Below are positions 2,189 to 20,504 of a DNA stretch of 20,592 nt, one piece after another (the first letter of the stretch is position 1; the number at the start of each line of letters is the position of its first letter). This stretch comes from a virus. The stretch lies in IMG/VR virus record IMGVR_UViG_3300042485_000716, positions 1 to 20,592 of that record. The stretch is one strand, 5' to 3'. Under the pieces are notes generated by a model. It did no database searches. It saw nothing but the letters and a program-made list of their open reading frames with translations, and was not told the DNA's origin. Position numbers and translations under genes: made by a program.

Positions 2189-2192
2189 CTTG

Positions 2193-3167
2193 ATGAAATA
2201 CTGTTCGGCACCCTGGGACACGGCCCATATTAATTACTCATCTCAAATGTCTGGCTGTTTTTGTGGAGTCTGGCACAAAAAAGGCGACATAGGTAGTGCA
2301 GCAGTACACCCAATTAGCTTTCTTTTTAATTCACAATCACAACAAGAATTTCGTGCTAGTATCATTGACCAGTCGTTCGAATACTGTAAAGCAGATACAT
2401 GCGTAAACTTTTATCGAATGGACCAAGTGGACCAAATCAGCTACGATCCAAATAAGGTTTACTTACCTACTACCTTACAATTGCAAATTGATCCAGTGTG
2501 TAATTTAAAATGTAGTATCTGCCGCCGCAACAACATTTATTATACCAAAGCTCGTCCGGAAGCTGTGCAAATTTTAAATAACATAGCCACCGAATATCAA
2601 AATTTTGAAGGCAAAGTAAATGTCCACTGCGACGGGTCTGGAGAAGTATTTGTTAGTCGTGCTTATTTAGATTTCTTCCGTCGAGAAGATCTTCCTAAAT
2701 GTTTTCATTTTAATATACAAACCAACGGCAATCTAATTACCAAGAATATGGATATAATTTTAAAATTACAATCTCAATTGGAAATGGTAGTAGTTAGTCT
2801 AGATGCTGCAACTGAAGAAACCTACAAAATTGTCCGCGGCGGAAACTTTAGTATTGTACTTGATGGTATAGTTGAACTAAAAAAATTAGGTATTAAAGTT
2901 TGGACTGAATATATTGTACAAACGGCCAATTACCAAGAAATTCCAGCGTATGTTAACTTGTGTAAAGAGTTAGGTGTTAATAAAATATCTCTACAACTTA
3001 TGAGTTTTATGAATCATATGACACCGGACTGGTGGAATGCTAATTCAGTAGAAGCTAGCCTAACTGTAGATAAACAATACCTAATTTCGATATTAACTGA
3101 ATTAACGAACGATCCACAAGTAGAAATTTGTGGCGGCCTTGAATACTTGCTTATTAAATCAGTTTGA
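2193..3167 (+). CDS. Radical SAM protein with N-terminal SPASM/twitch-like cysteines
   Basis: 324 aa from ATG 2193; an in-frame TTG lies one codon upstream. The radical SAM cluster motif CxxxCxxC is at C103, C107 and C110 (CNLKCSIC). It is followed by a GSGEVF segment (about 148-153), the counterpart of the GGEP loop, and QTNG (176-179). Before the core lies a SPASM/twitch-like set of cysteines, C4 (CSAPW), C22 and C24 (CFC), C65 and C70, suggesting an auxiliary Fe-S cluster at the N-terminus. Such proteins modify peptides or small substrates; the substrate here is unknown. It is the only plus-strand gene, sits between the VWA metallopeptidase and MoxR, is AT-rich and overlaps the end of the converging gene by 9 bp. 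This looks like an inserted cassette. Confidence 0.9.
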   Translation: MKYCSAPWDTAHINYSSQMSGCFCGVWHKKGDIGSAAVHPISFLFNSQSQQEFRASIIDQSFEYCKADTCVNFYRMDQVDQISYDPNKVYLPTTLQLQIDPVCNLKCSICRRNNIYYTKARPEAVQILNNIATEYQNFEGKVNVHCDGSGEVFVSRAYLDFFRREDLPKCFHFNIQTNGNLITKNMDIILKLQSQLEMVVVSLDAATEETYKIVRGGNFSIVLDGIVELKKLGIKVWTEYIVQTANYQEIPAYVNLCKELGVNKISLQLMSFMNHMTPDWWNANSVEASLTVDKQYLISILTELTNDPQVEICGGLEYLLIKSV

Positions 3168-3505: not shown

Positions 3506-4603
3506 TTATGCTACTGCCGCCACAACGTAACGACCAAAGCGTTTGTGGAACTCATCAAAGTTTTTCAACTTGTTAGGCACAAAAGGTAAGTTAAAAGTTG
3601 TTAACGCTACACGTGCGCCCATAACAGTAACTTCTGTAGTAAAGTTCTCCATCATAAACTTAAAGAAGTAATCTGCCATAGTATGCCATTTAGCATTGTC
3701 TTCCTTACCAATTTTAGTGTAGGCATCTTTCAATTCGTAACACATACTCATTGTCAAACTGTACATTGCACTAATTTCTTTAACAGCAAGTTCTGTAACC
3801 TTACCGTTTAAAATGTCTGTTGGATTAGGCATTTTAGCAGAAATCTTTCTATGCGCCATAAATTTAACCGCAGTACCTTCACCAATAGTACCTGCTACAA
3901 TATCTGTAGTAGTGCTATCTGCCATACCGTCATCTAACAACTCGCTAACAAAAGTCCAGCTACGAGGTGTTGCAAAACTACGGCTTGAGCTTTTTGGATC
4001 GAAGTCATACAAGTCTTGTTTAGCAAAACTAACATAACCAATAACGTCTTTGTTAATACGATTTTCAGTAGCCCATTGTAACCAGCTATCAAAGTCTACA
4101 CGCATTTCCAAATGCACAAATCTGTTAGCAAGTGGACTTGGCATTCTGTAGCTAACACCTTTGTCACCGTCTCTGTTACCTGCCGCTACCATTACAACGT
4201 TGTCAGGAAGTTTATACTTACCAACACGTCTGTTTAAAATAAGTTGATACGCAACTGCCTGCACACTCGGCGCCGCACTGTTCATCTCATCTAAAAACAA
4301 TACCACAATCGGATATTGTGCAGCCATTTCTTCTGTGGGCAAATCAATTGGCGGAGCCCAATCCATCACGCCCAAGTCTTTGTTAAAGTAAGGAATACCA
4401 CGTATGTCCGTCGGGTCCATTTGTGCCAAGCGTAAGTCAATCATCAACCCGCCCATGTCCTTAGTAATACCTTCTACTAATTCACTTTTACCAATACCTG
4501 GAGGACCCCATAAAAATAATGGGCGTTGTTTTGTAAAGCAACGTAAAATTGCCGCCTTTGCTTCTGTTGCTGTAACAGTTCTATTTTCAGTCATTGCCGC
4601 CAT
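3506..4603 (-). CDS. MoxR-type AAA+ ATPase
   Basis: 365 aa. Walker A is GPPGIGKS (33-40), Walker B is VVLFLDEMNSA with D105 and E106, and sensor 1 is AGN (141-143). Downstream are PSPLANRF and a mostly helical C-terminal half. MoxR ATPases act as chaperones that insert metals or remodel VWA-domain partners; the obvious partner is the VWA metallopeptidase at 828-2108, expressed from its own identical promoter type. The start at 4603 is supported by AGGAAGG about 8 nt upstream; a second ATG three codons later is less well placed. It is a single-gene transcription unit with a consensus promoter and an intrinsic terminator directly after the stop. Confidence 0.92.
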   Translation of the reverse strand: MAAMTENRTVTATEAKAAILRCFTKQRPLFLWGPPGIGKSELVEGITKDMGGLMIDLRLAQMDPTDIRGIPYFNKDLGVMDWAPPIDLPTEEMAAQYPIVVLFLDEMNSAAPSVQAVAYQLILNRRVGKYKLPDNVVMVAAGNRDGDKGVSYRMPSPLANRFVHLEMRVDFDSWLQWATENRINKDVIGYVSFAKQDLYDFDPKSSSRSFATPRSWTFVSELLDDGMADSTTTDIVAGTIGEGTAVKFMAHRKISAKMPNPTDILNGKVTELAVKEISAMYSLTMSMCYELKDAYTKIGKEDNAKWHTMADYFFKFMMENFTTEVTVMGARVALTTFNLPFVPNKLKNFDEFHKRFGRYVVAAVA

Positions 4604-8912: not shown

Positions 8913-9464
8913 TTAGCCTCTAATAAAAGTACTGCGTGACTTAGGAGTTTCCCACCAGTCAATACGATCTACTGTTACGTTAAGTGCTGTCATTTTCGCT
9001 TCAACAAGTTCAGCCATCCAAGCAGACAAGTTTTCACTTGTTGGAACGAAGTCAACGACCATAAATCCTTCGTAGTATTCGTACTCTGGAGTATTCGCTT
9101 CAATTCCAGATAAGTCCAAACACCAACCAGCAACGTGAGTAGTATTTGGAACAAGTACAGGAATAAGATTCCTATTACCAATAATACTGTCATATAAAGG
9201 ATCCTTTTTGTCTAAAATAAACTGATGATCGATGTATTCATTGATCCACTTCTTTAACCACTCTAGGTGTCTAAAGTCTGTTACCATACCTGTTGAATCT
9301 AAAGTACCAGTTGGGCTCTTTAGAAATACCTGCATCTTACCTTCATGTCCGTGTAGGTGACGGCAAGCGCACTTTAAGTCTGCCGCATATTCACCATTTA
9401 GTTTTTGTGTCCAAACTCTGTGTCCATAACAGAATTCAAATGTTTTATCGATTACGTGTGCCAT
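8913..9464 (-). CDS. queD: 6-carboxytetrahydropterin synthase-like protein QueD
   Basis: 183 aa. The expected zinc ligands are H15 (FCYGHRVW), H38 and H40 (CRHLHGHEGK), with C34 as the catalytic cysteine, D79-H80 (YIDHQF) and a C-terminal ETP segment. QueD turns dihydroneopterin triphosphate, made by FolE, into 6-carboxy-tetrahydropterin for 7-deazaguanine synthesis. The protein is longer than the roughly 120-aa bacterial enzyme because of an insertion at about 86-135, a feature I associate with phage forms. ATG 9464 is chosen because AAGGA lies 7 nt upstream and the promoter (9489-9517) lies inside the longer open frame that starts at 9521. It leads a unit with DUF3307 and two small genes. 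Confidence 0.92.
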   Translation of the reverse strand: MAHVIDKTFEFCYGHRVWTQKLNGEYAADLKCACRHLHGHEGKMQVFLKSPTGTLDSTGMVTDFRHLEWLKKWINEYIDHQFILDKKDPLYDSIIGNRNLIPVLVPNTTHVAGWCLDLSGIEANTPEYEYYEGFMVVDFVPTSENLSAWMAELVEAKMTALNVTVDRIDWWETPKSRSTFIRG

Positions 9465-9488
9465 ATCTTTTCCTTTGTCTATATTACT

Positions 9489-9517
9489 ATTATATTTAGG
9501 TTTTGTCTTAAAGTCAA
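9489..9517 (-). promoter_or_regulatory. Near-consensus sigma-70-type promoter for queD
   Basis: Minus-strand TTGACT (9517-9512), 17-base spacer, TATAAT (9494-9489). The TGA stop of the ClpP-like gene (9516-9514) lies inside the -35 hexamer. The promoter sets the upper limit for the QueD start. Confidence 0.9.
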
Positions 9518-10017
9518 TCAATTATTTTGCCATCTACAATAATTATTGGCCATAAATGTTCTACACTGTCAAACATGTAATGTATACGATCTGTATCATA
9601 TCCGTATGAGTTTAGTTTCTTAAGTATACGTTCGTTGTATTCCGGAGCCGCAAGTATTTGATGATGCTTATGTGAATAGAACGAATGTAATTTAAATTCA
9701 CCGTTGGCGTGATGTGTAGCTAAGGCCATAATAGCACAGGCACTGTCACAATAGTCTACAGCATACCAATTGACTAGCCCGTGTTGATATACTGTATCCA
9801 TAGCATCTAACAAATCTTCACTAGTGCCACCAATTGATGTAACATAAAAATTCAACGGTTGATTGGGGTGTTGCTTGACTATGGTGATTATTTCGTCATA
9901 TTCTTCTTTATGAAGTTTACCCACAACCTTATAGTCTTGCTCGCTGAGTTTGGTTATTTCTGGGGTAGCACAACCAATTAACATAATACTTAGAAAAATT
10001 AATATATTAAATTTCAT
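9514..10017 (-). CDS. ClpP/SDH-fold serine protease-like lipoprotein
   Basis: 167 aa from ATG 10017. The N-terminus is a lipoprotein signal with lipobox LIGC (13-16). The rest fits the ClpP/crotonase-like fold as used by ClpP and SDH-type proteases: a strand then SIGG (61-64) for the oxyanion loop, a helix with DAMDTVYQHG, the nucleophile context CDSAC with S92, and a candidate His at H111 (FKLHSF) after a strand. The third member of the triad is not assigned. The protein should be anchored in the envelope and could cleave host membrane or periplasmic proteins. It starts 4 nt after the preceding stop; a longer frame from 10071 would lack the signal at its N-terminus. The fold is inferred from motif order only. 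Confidence 0.72.
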   Translation of the reverse strand: MKFNILIFLSIMLIGCATPEITKLSEQDYKVVGKLHKEEYDEIITIVKQHPNQPLNFYVTSIGGTSEDLLDAMDTVYQHGLVNWYAVDYCDSACAIMALATHHANGEFKLHSFYSHKHHQILAAPEYNERILKKLNSYGYDTDRIHYMFDSVEHLWPIIIVDGKIID

Positions 10018-10021
10018 GTTC

Positions 10022-10957
10022 TTATAGTCGTTTGATATTAGAAGAGGTATTCTGCTGCCATAGTTCATCATAGTTTTGATTAGAAATTATTCTATTATTA
10101 ATTTCAATAGTCCAATTTTTAGTATTATCGCTGATATTAAATTTAGGAAGTACATTTTCAATATATTCTAAATGTTCGGATGGGATTGGATGTAGATCAG
10201 CTCTGCCGGACAGATTTTTTTGATTTTCATATTCTAGTTGTTCAGTTTGAATATGGTTATCAATTTTGTATACATTACGTATTTCTTTTAAAATAGCTAT
10301 GTCAATATTATTGATCTTTTTATTTAAGTAATCAGTAAAACTAGGCCACGATGTCCCTGCTACTTTTTCATATATAGATCTACTAGTCATTGGCGGCAAG
10401 TGTAATGGTCTACTAGACCAATTAGAATTAAATACCACTTCGTAAATACTTGGTTTTATTATTGATAATTCTTCTATGTATAATTCTTTAATTTCTTTAC
10501 TAATAGTAAAATTTGGATTATTATGAATTTGATTATCATTATAATGATCTAATGGAAGCATAGAAAGAAAATGCCAATTACAACCAATAGATTCGAGTAC
10601 CTTTTTAGTCATACTAATAGTAGCCAAATCCTTAATTAAATAGCCCATTGGATCTACTAGAGTTTTTATAAAATTATCATCGTATACTGGCTGATTATAG
10701 ATATTACCGTAGGTCAACCAGTCTCCATCGACCCATCGATCCTCTCGAGCAATACTAGTCCACATTATTATTACAGTATCGTTAGCAGTAATATTATTAC
10801 GCTTAATACATTCGGCAAGGGCATAAAAAATAAAAGAATTGCCGGCGCCGGACCGTCCCCAGTTTTCGAATTGTTCAAATTCTCTACCTAAAATATCTGC
10901 CCAAGTTGGCCATTTATAATTAGTAAAACTACAGCCAAATGTAAATAATCTATTCAT
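10022..10957 (-). CDS. SGNH/GDSL-type hydrolase-like protein, 311 aa
   Basis: Block I is FTFGCSFT with the nucleophile S10, block II is GRSGAGNS with G34-N40, and the acid-base pair is likely D254 and H256 in ADLHPIPSEHL (253-263). SGNH enzymes remove or transfer acyl groups on sugars, lipids or peptides; phage relatives are poorly characterised. Between the blocks, residues 195-228 match the 254-aa protein at 6347-7111 around WPSFTDY. Composition is AT-rich, with long runs of AAT/ATT codons, unlike the exonuclease genes upstream. It overlaps the second SGNH-like gene by 8 bp, so the two form a pair. The substrate is unknown. Confidence 0.82.
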   Translation of the reverse strand: MNRLFTFGCSFTNYKWPTWADILGREFEQFENWGRSGAGNSFIFYALAECIKRNNITANDTVIIMWTSIAREDRWVDGDWLTYGNIYNQPVYDDNFIKTLVDPMGYLIKDLATISMTKKVLESIGCNWHFLSMLPLDHYNDNQIHNNPNFTISKEIKELYIEELSIIKPSIYEVVFNSNWSSRPLHLPPMTSRSIYEKVAGTSWPSFTDYLNKKINNIDIAILKEIRNVYKIDNHIQTEQLEYENQKNLSGRADLHPIPSEHLEYIENVLPKFNISDNTKNWTIEINNRIISNQNYDELWQQNTSSNIKRL

Positions 10958-11723
10958 TATATTTTTGTGTAAAGTCTGATGCCATCTTTGTTAAATAATT
11001 ATCTAATAGATACTGCGCCCATGCTTTGTGAGCTTCTTCTGTCTGGTGACCACAAGGTTTGGTTTTATTGTTAACGATATAATGTTCTTTTCCAAACGGG
11101 GCAAACCCTTGATTATCGCACCATTCTAAAAATGAATTTTCAAATGGATTAATAATATTTTTATTTTTAATTATGTCCGAATAAAATGAGCTAATAAACG
11201 GAGCAGTAAAATCAATTGAGTTTAACAAAGGTCCTGAAAATATAACATATTTAATATTATTTAAGTCACACCAACTAGTAAATAATATTAAATTTTGTAA
11301 TAACGTTGTTGTAGCAGCTTCTTCATTATACCATGATAACCAAGAAATCGCAAATTGTTTATATCGATCAGCAATGTTAATTACTTTTTTGCTGTCGCAT
11401 TCATTGTACCAATCTGCTGAGTCAGAAAATTGTTCACTAAAAAAATCTCCATCATTGTACATTCGCCATTGCCCATTGGTGTGATTCTTATCCCACATTT
11501 CAGTCCGTAGTAAAAACGATAAAGAAATTACTGCTACAATGTCACTGTGCGTTTGCTTATGTAACATTAAATCTCTAAGTGAGGTCCTTAATATTCTACT
11601 ATTGCATGAACCAGGATGTGCAACATTGATAGTCGGACAATCTAATTGTTTACCTAAGAAATCACTATACCGTTTGCCGGATGAGATTCTTGAATAACTA
11701 CATCCGTTAACATATATTAACAT
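10950..11723 (-). CDS. Second SGNH-type hydrolase-like protein, 257 aa
   Basis: Block I is IYVNGCSYS with S9, block II is HPGSCNSRI with G38 and N41, and the C-terminal catalytic segment is probably GHQTEEAH (225-232). The middle contains a WxxWYNEE segment and a hydrophobic strand YVIFSGPLL (159-167). The sequence is clearly diverged from the neighbouring SGNH-like protein, so they are not a recent duplication. Translation is coupled to the exonuclease gene by a TAATG junction, and the end overlaps the next gene by 8 bp. AT-rich. It probably acts on an acyl or glycan group; the target is unknown. Confidence 0.78.
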   Translation of the reverse strand: MLIYVNGCSYSRISSGKRYSDFLGKQLDCPTINVAHPGSCNSRILRTSLRDLMLHKQTHSDIVAVISLSFLLRTEMWDKNHTNGQWRMYNDGDFFSEQFSDSADWYNECDSKKVINIADRYKQFAISWLSWYNEEAATTTLLQNLILFTSWCDLNNIKYVIFSGPLLNSIDFTAPFISSFYSDIIKNKNIINPFENSFLEWCDNQGFAPFGKEHYIVNNKTKPCGHQTEEAHKAWAQYLLDNYLTKMASDFTQKYNE

Positions 11724-12310
11724 TAATGAACTGCCTTTGCATCATGTAATAAGTTTTCAAGTCCACGTTGTCGCTCTAAGAACTTAAAGAATAGTGCCAG
11801 TGTATTAACTGCATCGATGTCTGCTCTGTGCGCTGTACCTTTAAACTGTAGTTTAAACGTGCCCATAGCACTAGCAAGTCCACCACTTGGGTTCTTGCCA
11901 CGTGCAAACATCATAAACGTATAGAATGTTTTACAATCAATCCATCTACGACCAAAGTGTGGAAAGTCTGCATAGTTTTTACAGAACTCATCTAATAGTT
12001 CTCTACTATCGCCACCACCCCAAGTAATTGGGTTGATCCAAGTATTGTGTTGTTTGATCAAGTCACTGAGTTCACGTGCAACTGTAGCGTGACTTACACA
12101 GTTTAATCTAATATCGTGATCGGTAATACCAGTCAAGTCAATAATAAATTGATCAATTGGTTCGTTTGGATCAATGTACCATTTCTTAGTTATGTAATTT
12201 TCAAACTTGTCATTTGCACTGCCAATGGCAATGCCAACCTGAATGATCTTACCACTGGGTTGGTTTAATTCTAAGTCTAACGCTAAAAACTTCTGTGATT
12301 TATCTATCAT
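11723..12310 (-). CDS. DnaQ-like 3'-5' exonuclease (DEDDh)
   Basis: 195 aa with the DEDDh set: D12 and E14 in exo I (LALDLELN), D101 in exo II (WGGGDSREL), and H161 and D166 in exo III (HRADIDAVN). KIIQVGIAIG (21-30) and GITDHDI (61-67) are typical of the fold. It should remove 3' nucleotides from DNA or RNA; in a phage it may serve repair, RNA turnover or nucleotide recycling. No polymerase domain is attached. The Shine-Dalgarno is weak and the start lies 14 nt after the preceding stop. It is third in the unit led by the 5'-3' exonuclease. Confidence 0.88.
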   Translation of the reverse strand: MIDKSQKFLALDLELNQPSGKIIQVGIAIGSANDKFENYITKKWYIDPNEPIDQFIIDLTGITDHDIRLNCVSHATVARELSDLIKQHNTWINPITWGGGDSRELLDEFCKNYADFPHFGRRWIDCKTFYTFMMFARGKNPSGGLASAMGTFKLQFKGTAHRADIDAVNTLALFFKFLERQRGLENLLHDAKAVH

Positions 12311-14150: not shown

Positions 14151-15020
14151 TTATTTCCCCCAACTGTTACCCCAAAGATCAACATGCAATCTTGGGCTGT
14201 AATAATAACCTCTAAGCATTGCTTCGTCTGCTACGTTAAATTTGTTGCCGTTGTAAACACTAACAACACCACCAACAGGCATAATATAAACTACACCTGT
14301 AAAGCCTGCAGCTCTATACGCTTGTACTGCGCGATCTACTTCATCAAAGTCACTGGGTTTTTCTACTACAAACTTAAGATACACAGTACCAAACTCTTGA
14401 TAGCTAACTACAATATCTGGTTTAATAGCATCTTCCCAACGCTCGCCACTGGCACTTAGTTTAGCACTGACACTAAATGTAACTTCGCGATAACCTAGAC
14501 TGTCCTTACCAAACTGCCATACATCTAATACATGACCAAAATCCTCACTTAATTCTTGAGTACCGTTTGTTTCAAATGTAATATTCTTTAGGTCTTGCAT
14601 ACGTTCATGTTTGAACAGTTCACCATAACTACGTTGCCATCCTAACAATGGCTCACCGCCTGTAATAACCAAATGCACATCGTTGCCATTGGCCTGTTGC
14701 CACTTATTGTTAGGAGTTAGTGCTAGCATACGCTCAACTACCTCACTAGTATCTAATGTAGGACTAAGATGTTTGAACTTAGGATGCCAACTAGCATAGC
14801 TATCGCAACCAGTGTTGACTAGCGGAAGTTCTTCGTAGGTTTTATATAATTGTACAGTTTTAGCAACTTCATCTGCTTCTGCACTAGCAGTTCCTCTAGG
14901 CATACCAAAACCACTACAGGTGAAGTTACAGCCAAATGTACGTAAGAAAACTGAAGGAACTCCTACGAAGCGTCCTTCACCTTGCGCACTATAAAATATC
15001 TCACTAACTTTTAGTTTCAT
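14151..15020 (-). CDS. queE: 7-carboxy-7-deazaguanine synthase-like radical SAM enzyme QueE
   Basis: 289 aa. SAQGEG (11-16), the FLRTFGCNFTC segment (25-35) and TGGEP (120-124) are the expected QueE elements, with FETNG (148-152) further on. QueE converts 6-carboxy-tetrahydropterin, the QueD product, into 7-carboxy-7-deazaguanine. The cluster motif is not the usual CxxxCxxC: C31 and C35 are present but position 38 is Phe (CNFTCSGFGMP). The third ligand is probably C72 (NTGCDSYASW) after an insertion of about 35 residues. It lies 6 nt after the phosphoribosyltransferase gene in the folE-led unit. Phage QueE proteins usually serve DNA modification or interference with host functions; which applies here is not known. 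Confidence 0.9.
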   Translation of the reverse strand: MKLKVSEIFYSAQGEGRFVGVPSVFLRTFGCNFTCSGFGMPRGTASAEADEVAKTVQLYKTYEELPLVNTGCDSYASWHPKFKHLSPTLDTSEVVERMLALTPNNKWQQANGNDVHLVITGGEPLLGWQRSYGELFKHERMQDLKNITFETNGTQELSEDFGHVLDVWQFGKDSLGYREVTFSVSAKLSASGERWEDAIKPDIVVSYQEFGTVYLKFVVEKPSDFDEVDRAVQAYRAAGFTGVVYIMPVGGVVSVYNGNKFNVADEAMLRGYYYSPRLHVDLWGNSWGK

Positions 15021-15026
15021 AATAAC

Positions 15027-15512
15027 CTATCTTTCCCATGGGTAAACGATCCATACATCTTTTTCTGCTTTGTTAATTTCTTTAGCTGAGTAGTCTACTT
15101 TACGACTAAAGCTACTGCTTAAATTATCAATTAATACAGCTATTTTAACATTATTTCCCCAAACATGCAACCAGTGTGCGTCAGATGGATGGCAACTACT
15201 TTGCCAATCATTGATAATCCAATCTAATGTAGCACCAGTATCATTAATGTCATCTAAAATAAGAATGTTTTTGCCATTATATGCATCTTCGGCCATCCAG
15301 CAATTACTTTCAGTATCTGCATTATCACGCAAACTTACTTTTAACGTTTCCATTGGAACATTAAGATAATGACTTAGATACACTGCTGGAATTAATCCGC
15401 CACGTGTTAATCCAACAATATAATCAGGCTTCCAATTCTCGCGGTGCATTTGCATAGTAATATCACTGATCATTTCTTTAATGTGTAGTTCATCGTAATA
15501 TATTTTTTCCAT
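15027..15512 (-). CDS. Purine phosphoribosyltransferase-like protein
   Basis: 161 aa with the type I PRTase features: GLTRGGLIPAVYLSH (34-48) and the PRPP loop ILILDDINDTGAT (83-95). The C-terminal VYPWE resembles xanthine/hypoxanthine-guanine enzymes. The expected reaction is transfer of ribose-5-phosphate from PRPP to a purine base. In this operon, between folE and queE, a deazapurine or guanine substrate is conceivable but unproven. AAGGA lies 7 nt before the ATG. There is a 15-bp gap to the radical SAM gene upstream and 6 bp to queE. Confidence 0.88.
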   Translation of the reverse strand: MEKIYYDELHIKEMISDITMQMHRENWKPDYIVGLTRGGLIPAVYLSHYLNVPMETLKVSLRDNADTESNCWMAEDAYNGKNILILDDINDTGATLDWIINDWQSSCHPSDAHWLHVWGNNVKIAVLIDNLSSSFSRKVDYSAKEINKAEKDVWIVYPWER

Positions 15513-15527
15513 CTTTAATCCTTTATT

Positions 15528-16769
15528 TTATTGTATCCACGGAAATAATTCTTTCCAATTAGTATTGCGTCGACGATCTATTTCATTAAGAAATAGTTTA
15601 AGATTTTCTATTTCTTGCGTATCAGCAGAACTAGCTAATACATGAGTTTGTATACCTTTCATGTATTTTTTTGCTTCTTGCTCGCGATGGGTAGTATCAT
15701 TCATCAATGATAATATAATTTCAAAATCTTCCTTAAATATTTCATTACCAAAGATAGTTGGTTTTAAGTAAAGAGGACCTGGTGCAACTTCACTAAAATA
15801 ATGTCCAACAGCACGTGTTTCCTTCCATTCTTTTAATTTAAGCAATAATTTTGGCATAGTCTTTATAGTTAATGAACTAATAGTTTGATTAATATTTAAA
15901 ACTATCCAAGATTGAGATAATAGATAATTAAAATTAGTTTCCCATTTAACTAAATCTATTCCATAACGAACGAATTCTTGTTCTTTGCCCCAACAATCAA
16001 TACTACATGTAATATCTAATCTACGAATTTTTTTAGTTGCAACTAAGTTCTTTATTCGATTAACGTATGCTGTTAATTTAGGTAACGATATCATTAGATT
16101 GGTTACTATGTTAAATTCTAACTGTGGGTGCGCATTATTTTCAAAATAAGTTAAGAGATCATCAAATTCCTTTTGATAAAATGGTTCTCCTCCCATTACG
16201 TGTATACGAGATAACGAAGCTGAATTTTTATTCATCCATTGCCAAAATGCTGTAACATATTTAGACTGTTGGTCACCTGATATGATATTAAATGTAGGAA
16301 AATTACTAATATTAATATTATCGGTAGACTCATTGAATTTAATATTTTCAAAATTTAATTTTGAACTGTATAATCCACTGCAATACACACAACTTAAATT
16401 ACATGTATTATTTAAATATATCTCAAGAAGTTTAGGAGTAACGCGAGTTGCAGTTAGGTCTGTTTCTAATTCGGTTGGAACTAAATTAGGAATAGCCATG
16501 TGCATCATGCGATCACTTGAACCACCTGCATCTTCAATTTGTTTACAGTATTCGCAACCTCCACCGGGCCATTCTCCGTCTAACATTTTATTTCGATCAG
16601 AAATCTTTAAAGGAGTATTGTGGAAATCATCAAAGTCTTCTAAATTTAATTTAGAATGACCTGCTCTGTGACACGAACTAGTTTCACCACTGTATAAAAA
16701 TATAGTAGACCAAGTCCATTTTAGCTGGCACGAAGTTGCTGTTTTTATCGGAAAATACTTATTACTCAT
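15528..16769 (-). CDS. Radical SAM protein with N-terminal SPASM/twitch-like cysteines, 413 aa
   Basis: The radical SAM motif is C123, C127 and C130 (CNLSCVYC), followed by MGGEPF (192-197) and ITCSIDCWG (about 250-260). Ahead of the core are four cysteines in a SPASM/twitch-like layout: C14, C33 (SSCHR), C72 and C75 (GGGCEYCKQ), probably holding a second Fe-S cluster. The layout matches the plus-strand radical SAM protein at 2193-3167 and suggests a related, diverged family acting on peptides or other bulky substrates. The gene is AT-rich compared with folE and queE in the same unit. It has no clear Shine-Dalgarno and its ATG directly follows the stop of a duplicated gene tail (16770-16838), so translation may be coupled to that tail. 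Confidence 0.88.
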   Translation of the reverse strand: MSNKYFPIKTATSCQLKWTWSTIFLYSGETSSCHRAGHSKLNLEDFDDFHNTPLKISDRNKMLDGEWPGGGCEYCKQIEDAGGSSDRMMHMAIPNLVPTELETDLTATRVTPKLLEIYLNNTCNLSCVYCSGLYSSKLNFENIKFNESTDNINISNFPTFNIISGDQQSKYVTAFWQWMNKNSASLSRIHVMGGEPFYQKEFDDLLTYFENNAHPQLEFNIVTNLMISLPKLTAYVNRIKNLVATKKIRRLDITCSIDCWGKEQEFVRYGIDLVKWETNFNYLLSQSWIVLNINQTISSLTIKTMPKLLLKLKEWKETRAVGHYFSEVAPGPLYLKPTIFGNEIFKEDFEIILSLMNDTTHREQEAKKYMKGIQTHVLASSADTQEIENLKLFLNEIDRRRNTNWKELFPWIQ

Positions 16770-17471: not shown

Positions 17472-17928
17472 TGGAAATTCCTTTATACTCATTATATTTT
17501 GCTTCGTTGTACGCATATATTTCTGCTAACAATCCTTTGAGGATGGCAGACTTGTGCCATTCTCTATCGCGTTTATCATAGGTATCCTTGTACTTTTTGT
17601 ACACCGGATCACTCAGCGACGCATATTTCTTATTTTGAAGTTGCTGATATAACTCAACAATCACACTATCTTCATAATCTAAAATTTCTTTTGGCGCACG
17701 TAACTCAGCTAACCTAGATTTTCTTCTAAGTTTTTCTTCGTATTTTTTGTTTAATTCATCACGAGTCAATTGGGGAGGTTCTGCATGATCACCCATAAAG
17801 ATTTTATACGCTTCGTCTAATATAACATCACCTCGTTCAGACAACTCGTCGTAGAGTGCTTCATTTTCTTCATATAGTTTATAGTCAACGCTGTTAGGGC
17901 CAACCCCTAAATGTGTCAATGGTCTCAT
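17455..17928 (-). CDS. Hypothetical charged helical protein, 157 aa
   Basis: No domain is recognised. The sequence is rich in Lys, Glu, Tyr and Asp and likely helical throughout, with probable coiled coil around 53-80 (TRDELNKKYEEKLRRKSRLA) and 110-130. No signal or membrane segment is seen. The ATG overlaps the folE stop as ATGA, with CAGGAG about 11 nt upstream, so it is translationally coupled to folE. Confidence 0.82.
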   Translation of the reverse strand: MRPLTHLGVGPNSVDYKLYEENEALYDELSERGDVILDEAYKIFMGDHAEPPQLTRDELNKKYEEKLRRKSRLAELRAPKEILDYEDSVIVELYQQLQNKKYASLSDPVYKKYKDTYDKRDREWHKSAILKGLLAEIYAYNEAKYNEYKGISNEMVR

Positions 17929-18620
17929 CGTGGCGCAAACTCCTGTTGTAGTTTAATGTTATCAAAGAACTCTTTCTTAGTATCCGGGTCATTTTTAAAT
18001 GCACCTTCTAAGACTGTAGTTTGAGTCAATGAACTATGTGCCATGATACCACGATTCTCACAGCAACCGTGCGTGGCCTGTATATAAACAGCAACATCTT
18101 TACTACCAGTTGCTTTCATAATTTCTCTAGTGATGTCATTGCACAGTTCTTCTTGTAAGGTACCACGTGTAGCACACCATTGCGCAATACGTGTATACTT
18201 ACTTAGACCAATTAGTTTCTGTGCAGCAATAATACCAATATAAGCTACACCTTTAACTGGCTGATGGTGATGACTACACATACTGCGTAGTTCACTACGT
18301 ACCACTAACATACCTTCATAGCGATCTGTGCTGTCATTAGGAAAAGCAGTAGCATCTGGTGCTGGATCATAACGACCTGCCATAATCTCATGATAGTACA
18401 TCTTAGCAAGTCTGCGTGCTGTACCATGGCTATTAGGATCGTTTTCGCGATCAATCAGCAATGTATCTAGCACTGCTTCAAATGCTTCAGTTGCTTCGTC
18501 GATTAACAGTTCTTTGTTTTCTTCTGTGATGTATTCTGAGATGTTATCGCCTGCCCAGAATCTTTTGTTGTTGCTTTTTAGATTGTTGCGAATATGTTCG
18601 CTTACTTTGTATTTTGACAT
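17925..18620 (-). CDS. folE: GTP cyclohydrolase I
   Basis: 231 aa, full length. Zinc ligands are C115 and H118 (SMCSHHHQPV) and C186 (THGCCENRG). FolE turns GTP into 7,8-dihydroneopterin triphosphate, the first step of folate and of 7-deazaguanine synthesis; with queD and queE in the same window the second route is favoured. ATG 18620 has GGAG at the right distance; the longer frame from 18653 uses TTG and reaches into the promoter leader. It leads an eight-gene unit down to 13709, containing the phosphoribosyltransferase and queE, and overlaps the next gene by 4 bp. Confidence 0.94.
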   Translation of the reverse strand: MSKYKVSEHIRNNLKSNNKRFWAGDNISEYITEENKELLIDEATEAFEAVLDTLLIDRENDPNSHGTARRLAKMYYHEIMAGRYDPAPDATAFPNDSTDRYEGMLVVRSELRSMCSHHHQPVKGVAYIGIIAAQKLIGLSKYTRIAQWCATRGTLQEELCNDITREIMKATGSKDVAVYIQATHGCCENRGIMAHSSLTQTTVLEGAFKNDPDTKKEFFDNIKLQQEFAPR

Positions 18621-18664: not shown

Positions 18665-18693
18665 GTATAACATGATTATTTAGGCTGTGTCAA
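18665..18693 (-). promoter_or_regulatory. Sigma-70-type promoter for the folE unit
   Basis: Minus-strand TTGACA (18693-18688) with TTATAC at 17 bases (18670-18665), or TATACT at 18 bases, preceded by TG. The -10 is weaker than in the other seven promoters. The TGA stop of the upstream radical SAM gene (18692-18690) lies inside the -35 hexamer. The leader is about 38 nt. Confidence 0.8.
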
Positions 18694-20498
18694 ACATATT
18701 TAAATATATTTTTTAGCCCGCCACGTCTTCTTGCATAAAAGAAATCAAAATGTTTATTCATTTTGTTTTTTGTTTCAATTGAATATTTGGTATTGGTTCT
18801 AGTCCAATCGGTGAGATTCAACGGAACTTCGATAATAATTGGCATCACCGCAGTATGATCGTATACAAAATGTTGTTGTAACGGATTAATGACATCAAGC
18901 TCGTCACTAAACTTACTAAAACATTCGGCACCTAATTTCATAACTAGTTCTTTATTATCATACATAAGTTTAGCACTTTTGGACACTAAGCCATGTCCGT
19001 GCGCCTTGCTAGTATCAGTTATAACTGACATATCAAATACACCTGTAGTTAGGTATATTGTCAGCAGTTGTTTATATTCTTTATAGTGTTGCCCAATTAC
19101 ATCATCTTGCTTAATTATAGTAACTAATGTATCGTAGAATTGTCTATAGGAAATATCCAGCACATTTCTACAGAATTTAGCATATAATTGCGTATAACCT
19201 GCAATATGAAAATTAATTATGATCCAAGAGTACATATATGCTTCGATGATATCATCAGTAGTCATAGTACTAGTTTGATTAATTAATAAAATATCTTCTT
19301 TAATATCTTGATAGTCGTCCGGGTTGCTAAAGCTCAAATAGTCGTAGGCTACTACAGTTTTAATTTTATATTGCATTCTACTTTCGAACGTAGCAAGTGC
19401 AGAATTTTCTAACAATTGGCAAAAGTAAATATCGATAGCATCGTGCTGACCCATTTCTAATATCTTACACATACCATCACGCCAAGTTTCTAATGTTTCT
19501 TCAGGTAAGCCTAAAATCGCTTCGGTATAAGTACCAATTTGATATTTTTGCCCTAGCTCTAACATTTTACTAATGTCGTTGACGTCCATGTTTTTACGTT
19601 CAATGATTTCTAAAGTTTTGTCATTCATGCTTTGTACAGATACAGTGATGCCTCTGTGCAAGTGTCCAAGTTCTCTAGCAATTTCAAATATAACTTCAGT
19701 TGAGTTTTTAGCATATTGTAGATTTACACTTTCTACCATACCTATATCGGCACAACGTTTAATCATACGTGCTATTTCTAAATCACGTTCTTTAAACATA
19801 CCAAAGTTAGCATCAGCACAGAAAATAAATGCTACTGGGTTAGCCGCTGCCCAATCTAATTCAAATTGAACGTGTTCTAAGCTAAAGCGTTTGACTTTAC
19901 TATAGGTAGTGCCGCCCCAATCACAGAACGTGCAAGCATAAGGACAACCACGATTAGTTTCTAATACCATGCTCCAAATTGCATCGGGGTTATTTTTAAT
20001 AATAGTATCAAACACACCCGTAGTATATGGACTAGGTATATCTAAATCTTGTAGTCTACTCTTTAAAAACAATTCCGGAACAGGTTTGTTGTCCTTAATA
20101 GCTTTGAGTAATTTTAAGAATGATTCTTCGCCCTCAGCCAGTACTACACTATCAACATAGTCTAGTTTGGTCATCGAAGTGCTAGCTTGCGGCCCACCAA
20201 TGACAATAACACAATCAGGCCAACGCTGCTTAATCTCTTTTGCTAGAATCATGCAGTATTTTTGATTCCATACGTATATACTGAATCCACAAATACTAGG
20301 ATTATCCAATGAATCGAGTAATTCTTTGGGGTCTTGACGTTTGAAGATTAAGTCTTTGAGAGTAAAATTTTCATTGACCCAATCAAACTGTTGAGCGTAA
20401 CTCCAGATGCAACCTACTGAATAAGGTAACCAGTAATTAGTTTCGTCTCGAACATCCACAGCAAATTGCGGTTGGAATAGATATACATTATGTCGCAT
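18690..20498 (-). CDS. B12-binding-type radical SAM protein, 602 aa
   Basis: The N-terminal 150 residues look like a cobalamin-binding Rossmann domain: LFQPQF (7-12), ICGFSIYVWN (69-78), VIVIGGPQAS (97-106) and VVLAEGEESF (118-127). The radical SAM core has C185, C189 and C192 (GCPYACTFCDWGG), CADANFG and VSVQSMND. A C-terminal region of about 200 residues has no motif I recognise. This is the architecture of class B radical SAM methyltransferases and relatives, which methylate or rearrange unactivated carbons. The substrate is unknown. ATG 20498 is preceded at 6 nt by AATAAATA and no Shine-Dalgarno; an in-frame TTG lies two codons upstream. The stop codon is part of the folE -35 box. Confidence 0.9.
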   Translation of the reverse strand: MRHNVYLFQPQFAVDVRDETNYWLPYSVGCIWSYAQQFDWVNENFTLKDLIFKRQDPKELLDSLDNPSICGFSIYVWNQKYCMILAKEIKQRWPDCVIVIGGPQASTSMTKLDYVDSVVLAEGEESFLKLLKAIKDNKPVPELFLKSRLQDLDIPSPYTTGVFDTIIKNNPDAIWSMVLETNRGCPYACTFCDWGGTTYSKVKRFSLEHVQFELDWAAANPVAFIFCADANFGMFKERDLEIARMIKRCADIGMVESVNLQYAKNSTEVIFEIARELGHLHRGITVSVQSMNDKTLEIIERKNMDVNDISKMLELGQKYQIGTYTEAILGLPEETLETWRDGMCKILEMGQHDAIDIYFCQLLENSALATFESRMQYKIKTVVAYDYLSFSNPDDYQDIKEDILLINQTSTMTTDDIIEAYMYSWIIINFHIAGYTQLYAKFCRNVLDISYRQFYDTLVTIIKQDDVIGQHYKEYKQLLTIYLTTGVFDMSVITDTSKAHGHGLVSKSAKLMYDNKELVMKLGAECFSKFSDELDVINPLQQHFVYDHTAVMPIIIEVPLNLTDWTRTNTKYSIETKNKMNKHFDFFYARRRGGLKNIFKYV

Positions 20499-20504
20499 AA
20501 GCAA

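Follow-up and report, generated by a model that had tools for sequence, protein, structure and literature searches.

A predicted lipid-anchored ClpP-fold protein encoded by an accessory gene of a large phage

The stretch of viral DNA analysed here (IMG/VR record IMGVR_UViG_3300042485_000716, positions 1 to 20,592; 20,592 nucleotides, hereafter the window) carries on its minus strand, at 9514..10017, a 167-residue open reading frame whose product appears, as judged from its sequence, to belong to a recognised but so far uncharacterised family of exported ClpP-fold proteins and to differ from its usual members in being lipid-anchored. The favoured reading, to which we assign a probability of roughly 0.6, is that an accessory phage gene encodes an exported ClpP-fold lipoprotein that acts as a Ser-His peptidase on envelope proteins. 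The initial annotation had placed the gene at the same coordinates, which were confirmed, and had named a lipobox at residue 16, SIGG, CDSAC with S92, and H111. These are LIGC ending in C16, SIGG at residues 61-64, CDSAC at 90-94 with S92, and H111, in agreement with the residue numbers it gave. Its anatomy was a sound first-stage reading, and its interpretation overall is partly supported; its assignment of the gene to an early unit is not supported.

Reading frame, lipobox and selection

The predicted protein begins with a signal peptide of 15 residues (MKFNILIFLSIMLIG; residues 1-15, 9973..10017, minus strand), which is followed by the lipobox cysteine C16 (9970..9972, minus strand). An alternative ATG at 10071 would give a reading of 185 residues and overlaps the neighbouring gene. 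The 167-residue start is supported because relatives such as locus L001, in which the ATG lies 16 codons before the Cys, have no earlier start codon in frame.

A scan of viral contigs recovered close relatives encoded at 26 distinct viral loci, with 84-95% identity in the best segment. The lipobox Cys, in the context CxTPE, is present in all 26 of these relatives, 16-18 codons after the ATG, and a small residue at position -1 is likewise kept in every one, whereas the signal peptides are divergent, so that a drifting hydrophobic leader precedes the same Cys throughout. The lipoprotein signal that had been proposed from the window alone is supported. In Escherichia coli, the Lol rule holds that the residue at +2 of the lipobox Cys governs outer-membrane sorting, and the Ala at +2 after C16 suggests that the protein would be sorted to the outer membrane.

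Among 11 aligned close sequences, C90, S92, C94, H111 and the other motif residues are invariant, as is E153. Pairwise comparison of the mature part gave a median dN/dS of 0.059 (range 0.017-0.105; 45 pairs from 10 distinct complete sequences). We conclude that this is a genuine gene and that purifying selection acts on it.

The wider family and its active-site signature

Searches with the single sequence gave little. No Pfam family was found at E<=10, in a collection that covers both ClpP (PF00574) and SDH (PF01972), PHROGs returned only weak matches to families without an assigned function, and neither the PDB sequences nor PADLOC yielded a match. The nearest curated ClpP model, NF009205 of NCBIfam, scored 12.6 bits, far below its cut-off of 228.

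The bridge to a wider family is a protein of Vibrio phage D479, which exhibits 24.5% identity with the window protein (E = 0.03 in the search and 7e-10 in a pairwise BLASTP comparison) and has no close relatives in the viral contigs. A tblastn search from the D479 protein led to Vibrio phage 2.275.O, to Agrobacterium phages Atu_ph07 and Atu_ph08, and to 189 plasmid records, mostly from Pseudomonas, Phaeobacter and Rhizobiaceae. An HMM of seven distant relatives, five trimmed at the C terminus and the two Vibrio phage proteins whole, scored the window protein at 36.5 bits; the highest score among 5000 shuffles of that protein was 11.0. The nucleophile elbow reads CxSAC in five of these seven relatives and CxSGC in two, and the only invariant columns across nine aligned sequences are G33, S61, G63, G64, C90, S92, C94 and H111.

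These proteins share the signature SxGG...CxS[AG]C...GxH of an exported ClpP-fold family that we take to be COG3904 ('predicted periplasmic protein'). The HMM score and the D479 comparison establish sequence homology between the window protein and COG3904-like members that had been collected by similarity alone, and the protein presents the elements of the signature in order on a ClpP fold: S61-I-G-G64 (9826..9837, minus strand), which corresponds to the SPGG oxyanion loop of ClpP; the elbow C90-D-S92-A-C94 (9736..9750, minus strand), in which S92 is the presumed nucleophile; and H111 (9685..9687, minus strand), the presumed general base, which is preceded by K-L instead of the G-x of the family. 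The export signal of the family is present as a hydrophobic leader followed by a lipobox. The window protein thus resembles COG3904-like members in motif order, fold, N-terminal export signal and both cysteines, and differs from them in its lipobox, a shorter loop before the His and a shorter C terminus.

With a profile search at E<=1e-8, members were found in 22 of 31 genomes from the same taxonomic family as a Mesorhizobium genome and in 7 of 94 from the same class as a Cupriavidus genome. No description of a function for the COG3904-like family was found in a literature search judged by titles and abstract openings. An excerpt of PMC3091676 lists COG3904 only under category S.

The relatives gathered for residue counts comprised 54 domains from 44 loci, of which 47 were distinct, all found by profile search. 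Among the domains with a residue at the position concerned, Cys is present at the positions of C90 and C94 in 42/45 each, Ser at that of S92 and His at that of H111 in 44/45 each, and Gly at that of G64 in 43/43, counts that carry a mild bias since each of the eight sequences behind the search profile possesses the motif residues. A further set of relatives was retrieved by motif pattern, and 134 of its 174 loci were examined (54/54 viral and 80/120 bacterial), with an in-frame ORF in 105. Motif conservation in this set exists by construction and was excluded as evidence, the counts being taken from relatives found by tblastn or profile. The two cysteines that flank the Ser had been regarded as unusual in the initial annotation, a view that proved wrong: the family as a whole is marked by CxS[AG]C, and C90 and C94 are its rule and no oddity, Cys occupying each position in 42 of the 45 domains. 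What does look uncommon relative to the family is the predicted lipidation. By a simple ad hoc rule applied to ORFs scoring at least 15 bits, a lipobox was detected in 1 of the 25 viral and in 0 of the 47 bacterial relatives examined.

VPHD479_0238 of Vibrio phage D479 and NVP2275O_272 of Vibrio phage 2.275.O ('ClpP/crotonase-like domain protein', IPR029045) belong to the same family, are encoded by large phages and possess a CDSAC or CHSAC elbow like the CDSAC of the window protein, but they differ in a hydrophobic N-terminal stretch without a lipobox and in their gene neighbourhood. The proteins of Agrobacterium phages Atu_ph07 (281 residues) and Atu_ph08 ('putative periplasmic protein') exhibit the same signature, but are longer and have other termini, and no lipobox was seen in them.

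Two structure models were computed with AlphaFold2. The model from 11 close sequences (pLDDT 56.4) placed weak ClpP matches on top, the best at E = 0.033, and was too uncertain for use alone. The model from a 39-sequence alignment, which was assembled from 32 of the 69 references listed and six close relatives, reached a pLDDT of 89.8 and a pTM of 0.82, and relies on relatives chosen by motif pattern. The window protein exhibits 12-21% identity with the distant members of this alignment. A Foldseek search with the 39-sequence model gave 914 PDB matches at E<=1e-3, with ClpP first (2.7e-7), and the best 50 of the 914 are ClpP chains together with two entries of the 1510-N protease (6m4b_A and 3viv_A). 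With VIA, 142 residues were aligned to 9fsw_G, the ClpP of Staphylococcus epidermidis (Z 14.7, rmsd 3.4), and 964 of 1000 chains had a Z of 8 or more. No SDH entry was present among the PDB structural matches listed, which by itself says nothing on membership of the SDH family. The best structural match among viral models is the Atu_ph07 protein (E = 1.1e-8); phage-encoded ClpP is common among the viral matches, and a viral model annotated as crotonase was also matched. The window protein is modelled with the ClpP fold, and the ClpP/crotonase core, the absence of which would have counted against the initial annotation, is present in the prediction.

A profile of the 39-sequence alignment searched against PDB sequences matched ClpP at E = 6.7e-5 and the 1510-N protease at E = 0.012. 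In the profile alignment the family Ser coincides with the Ser in the AASMG elbow of ClpP, and the family His with the ClpP His, so that both residues proposed as ClpP-like take ClpP positions. The stretch that presumably holds the catalytic Asp of the ClpP sequence aligned here falls against a gap. D150 and E153 were considered as the third residue of a triad and rejected, neither column being conserved in distant relatives. The ClpP peptidases (S14) have the fold, the Ser, the His and the GG loop in common with the window protein, which differs from them in that it is exported and lipidated as predicted from sequence, possesses a CxSxC elbow, lacks a clear catalytic Asp and has no Pfam match; identity with ClpP is 11-15% in the structural alignments listed. 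The 1510-N membrane-bound stomatin-specific protease (NfeD type) is likewise a ClpP-fold peptidase and works at the membrane. It uses a Ser-Lys dyad and, to our knowledge, is not a lipoprotein.

A proposed role at the host envelope

In the mechanism that we propose, processing by signal peptidase II would leave C16 lipidated, and the 152-residue ClpP-fold domain would face the host periplasm, tethered most likely to the periplasmic surface of the outer membrane. The catalytic centre would be of the Ser-His (triad-like) type, made up of S92 and H111, and the SIGG loop would supply the oxyanion hole. C90 and C94 would make the elbow around the nucleophile more rigid, probably by pairing in a disulfide under the oxidising conditions of the periplasm. 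The protein, a small peptidase that needs no Clp ATPase, would cleave envelope proteins and thereby alter the surface or the envelope stress response of the infected cell. Active hydrolysis in the host envelope is, on balance, probable. Superinfection exclusion may be the single most likely benefit, although as the purpose of the gene it is put forward tentatively and is open to considerable doubt. The serine protease activity suggested by the initial annotation, with degradation of a receptor or a block to superinfection, is plausible. A more elaborate version of the mechanism, which we consider improbable, would make the protein a lipid-anchored, redox-gated ClpP-fold protease on the periplasmic surface of the outer membrane: a C90-C94 disulfide formed only after export would set the elbow, so that the enzyme would have no activity in the cytoplasm and would switch on in the periplasm, there clipping a receptor or porin and so closing the cell to competing phages.

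The catalytic acid bears on a different reading of the same fold. Given that the Asp region faces a gap and that the D150 and E153 columns are variable, the protein might have little or no catalytic activity and act, as a ClpP-fold lipoprotein, by binding, for example by capping an outer-membrane receptor, with the Ser and His in a structural role. Superinfection exclusion is known for phage lipoproteins such as those of the T5 Llp/Ltp kind, which stop a second phage from adsorbing or from delivering its DNA, and its mode is blocking rather than proteolysis, which also speaks for binding. However, the near-complete retention of Ser and His (44/45 each) and of the GG loop in very distant relatives is an active-site pattern, and action by binding alone is considered unlikely. 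An envelope hydrolase of another chemistry, directed at acyl, thioester or lipid substrates on a ClpP/crotonase fold, would agree with the crotonase-annotated viral model, crotonases being proteins that share the ClpP fold, and with a CxSxC elbow that differs from that of classical ClpP. Its probability is nevertheless judged to be low, as ClpP and the 1510-N peptidase provide the best structural and profile matches and the nucleophile Ser is placed as in ClpP.

Two further readings concern the location of the domain rather than its chemistry. An uncleaved N-terminal anchor, by which the domain would be tethered to the inner membrane instead of being lipidated, is suggested by the hydrophobic stretch without a lipobox in the relatives from Vibrio phages D479 and 2.275.O, but the close relatives all keep the Cys and the small residue at -1 while the leader drifts, which renders such an anchor quite improbable for the window protein. 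An ordinary cytoplasmic phage ClpP subunit that partners host ClpX or ClpA would account for the fold and for the abundance of phage ClpP among the viral structural matches, but is hardly credible for a protein with a leader and lipobox Cys in 26/26 relatives, no match to the Pfam CLP_protease family and nearest families that look exported.

If the exported ClpP-fold lipoprotein is an active peptidase, it would be a concrete, testable phage member of a widespread exported family for which the literature searched gave no function, and cargo of this kind, whose phenotype is probably a simple one such as an envelope change or phage exclusion, could provide a handle on the role of the whole family. 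In other respects it is a modest extension of known themes, namely phage ClpP proteins and phage lipoproteins (for the latter, for example, PMC9586334 and PMC3952083).

Phage context and the cargo slot

The window represents part of a large phage genome, and the longest contig with the gene spans 218,902 bases (L015). Pfam matches in the window comprise a metallopeptidase/VWA protein, an AAA ATPase, an HD-domain protein, PTPS (QueD), radical SAM proteins, GTP cyclohydrolase I, a DnaQ-like exonuclease and a 5'-3' exonuclease. No named phage has a near DNA match to the window. At the protein level, the nearest named phages include the Pseudomonas phages PA5oct and Paride (Arenbergviridae), with approximately 49% identity in the 5'-3' exonuclease and 48% in the AAA ATPase, and the 5'-3' exonuclease also matches that of Xanthomonas phage XaC1 (50%). 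The gene order PRT-QueE-exonuclease-h7995-h7443-AAA is common to the window and Paride, and no ClpP-like gene was found at the same place in Paride among 20 translated proteins searched with two HMMs.

The ClpP-fold gene lies in the gap between a DnaQ-like exonuclease gene (RNase_T; 11723..12310, minus strand), the upstream border, and queD (PTPS family; 8913..9464, minus strand), the downstream border, both assigned by Pfam. A survey of this slot covered 98 loci, in 47 of which both borders are present in order; 23 of the 47 carry the gene, and 22 of those 23 had been fetched because they carry it, the remaining one (L238) being the same contig as L001. In L226 and L227 the slot is empty, the exonuclease and queD matches lying 102 bases apart, and the exonucleases of these loci are 97-98% identical to those of the window. 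In other loci the slot holds different genes, such as SGNH-like and methyltransferase-like genes (named by eye) and small proteins of no assigned function. The ClpP-fold gene is therefore optional, accessory cargo, since the slot is empty or differently filled in related loci. It was detected in only 7 of the best 80 (of 597) viral 5'-3' exonuclease loci, many of whose contigs end before the slot, and is therefore dispensable for growth in general. Accessory status fits a role in host manipulation or phage competition, without proving it.

Across the related phages (L226-L283), the exonuclease-queD gap is a hypervariable cargo slot, which may be empty or be filled by one of several different gene sets. 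The window slot also holds two genes of 311 and 257 residues (10022..11723, minus strand) without a firm Pfam match, which look SGNH-like by eye; their products begin GCSFT and GCSYS and resemble SGNH-type hydrolases, and a homologue of one of them (44%) occupies the same slot in L005, L006 and L228.

A pattern search located a sigma-70-like promoter, TTGACT-17-TATAAT (11/12; 9489..9517, minus strand), that would serve the downstream queD, its -35 box lying at or overlapping the 3' end (stop codon) of the ClpP-fold gene. By our own pattern, 28 of 47 sequences, among them the window, have a sigma-70-like promoter ahead of queD. The promoter with the extended core CCTAAATATAATAGTA (9488-9517, minus strand) is also found in front of queD in related phages, including those with different upstream cargo (L244, with a near form in L270).

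Elsewhere in the window, the genes for QueD, a QueE-like radical SAM protein and GTP cyclohydrolase I (8913-9464, 14151-15020 and 17925-18620, minus strand) make up much of a pathway to 7-deazaguanine precursors, which suggests that the phage DNA is modified, and a phosphoribosyltransferase gene (15027-15512) lies beside these 7-deazaguanine-type genes. The window also encodes three other radical SAM proteins, of which one has a B12-binding domain, at 2190-3167 (plus strand) and at 15528-16769 and 18690-20504 (minus strand), a large number for a 20-kb phage sequence. A DUF2201 metallopeptidase/VWA protein and a MoxR-like AAA ATPase are encoded at 828-2108 and 3506-4603 (minus strand), and this pair is found in the same order in several related loci.
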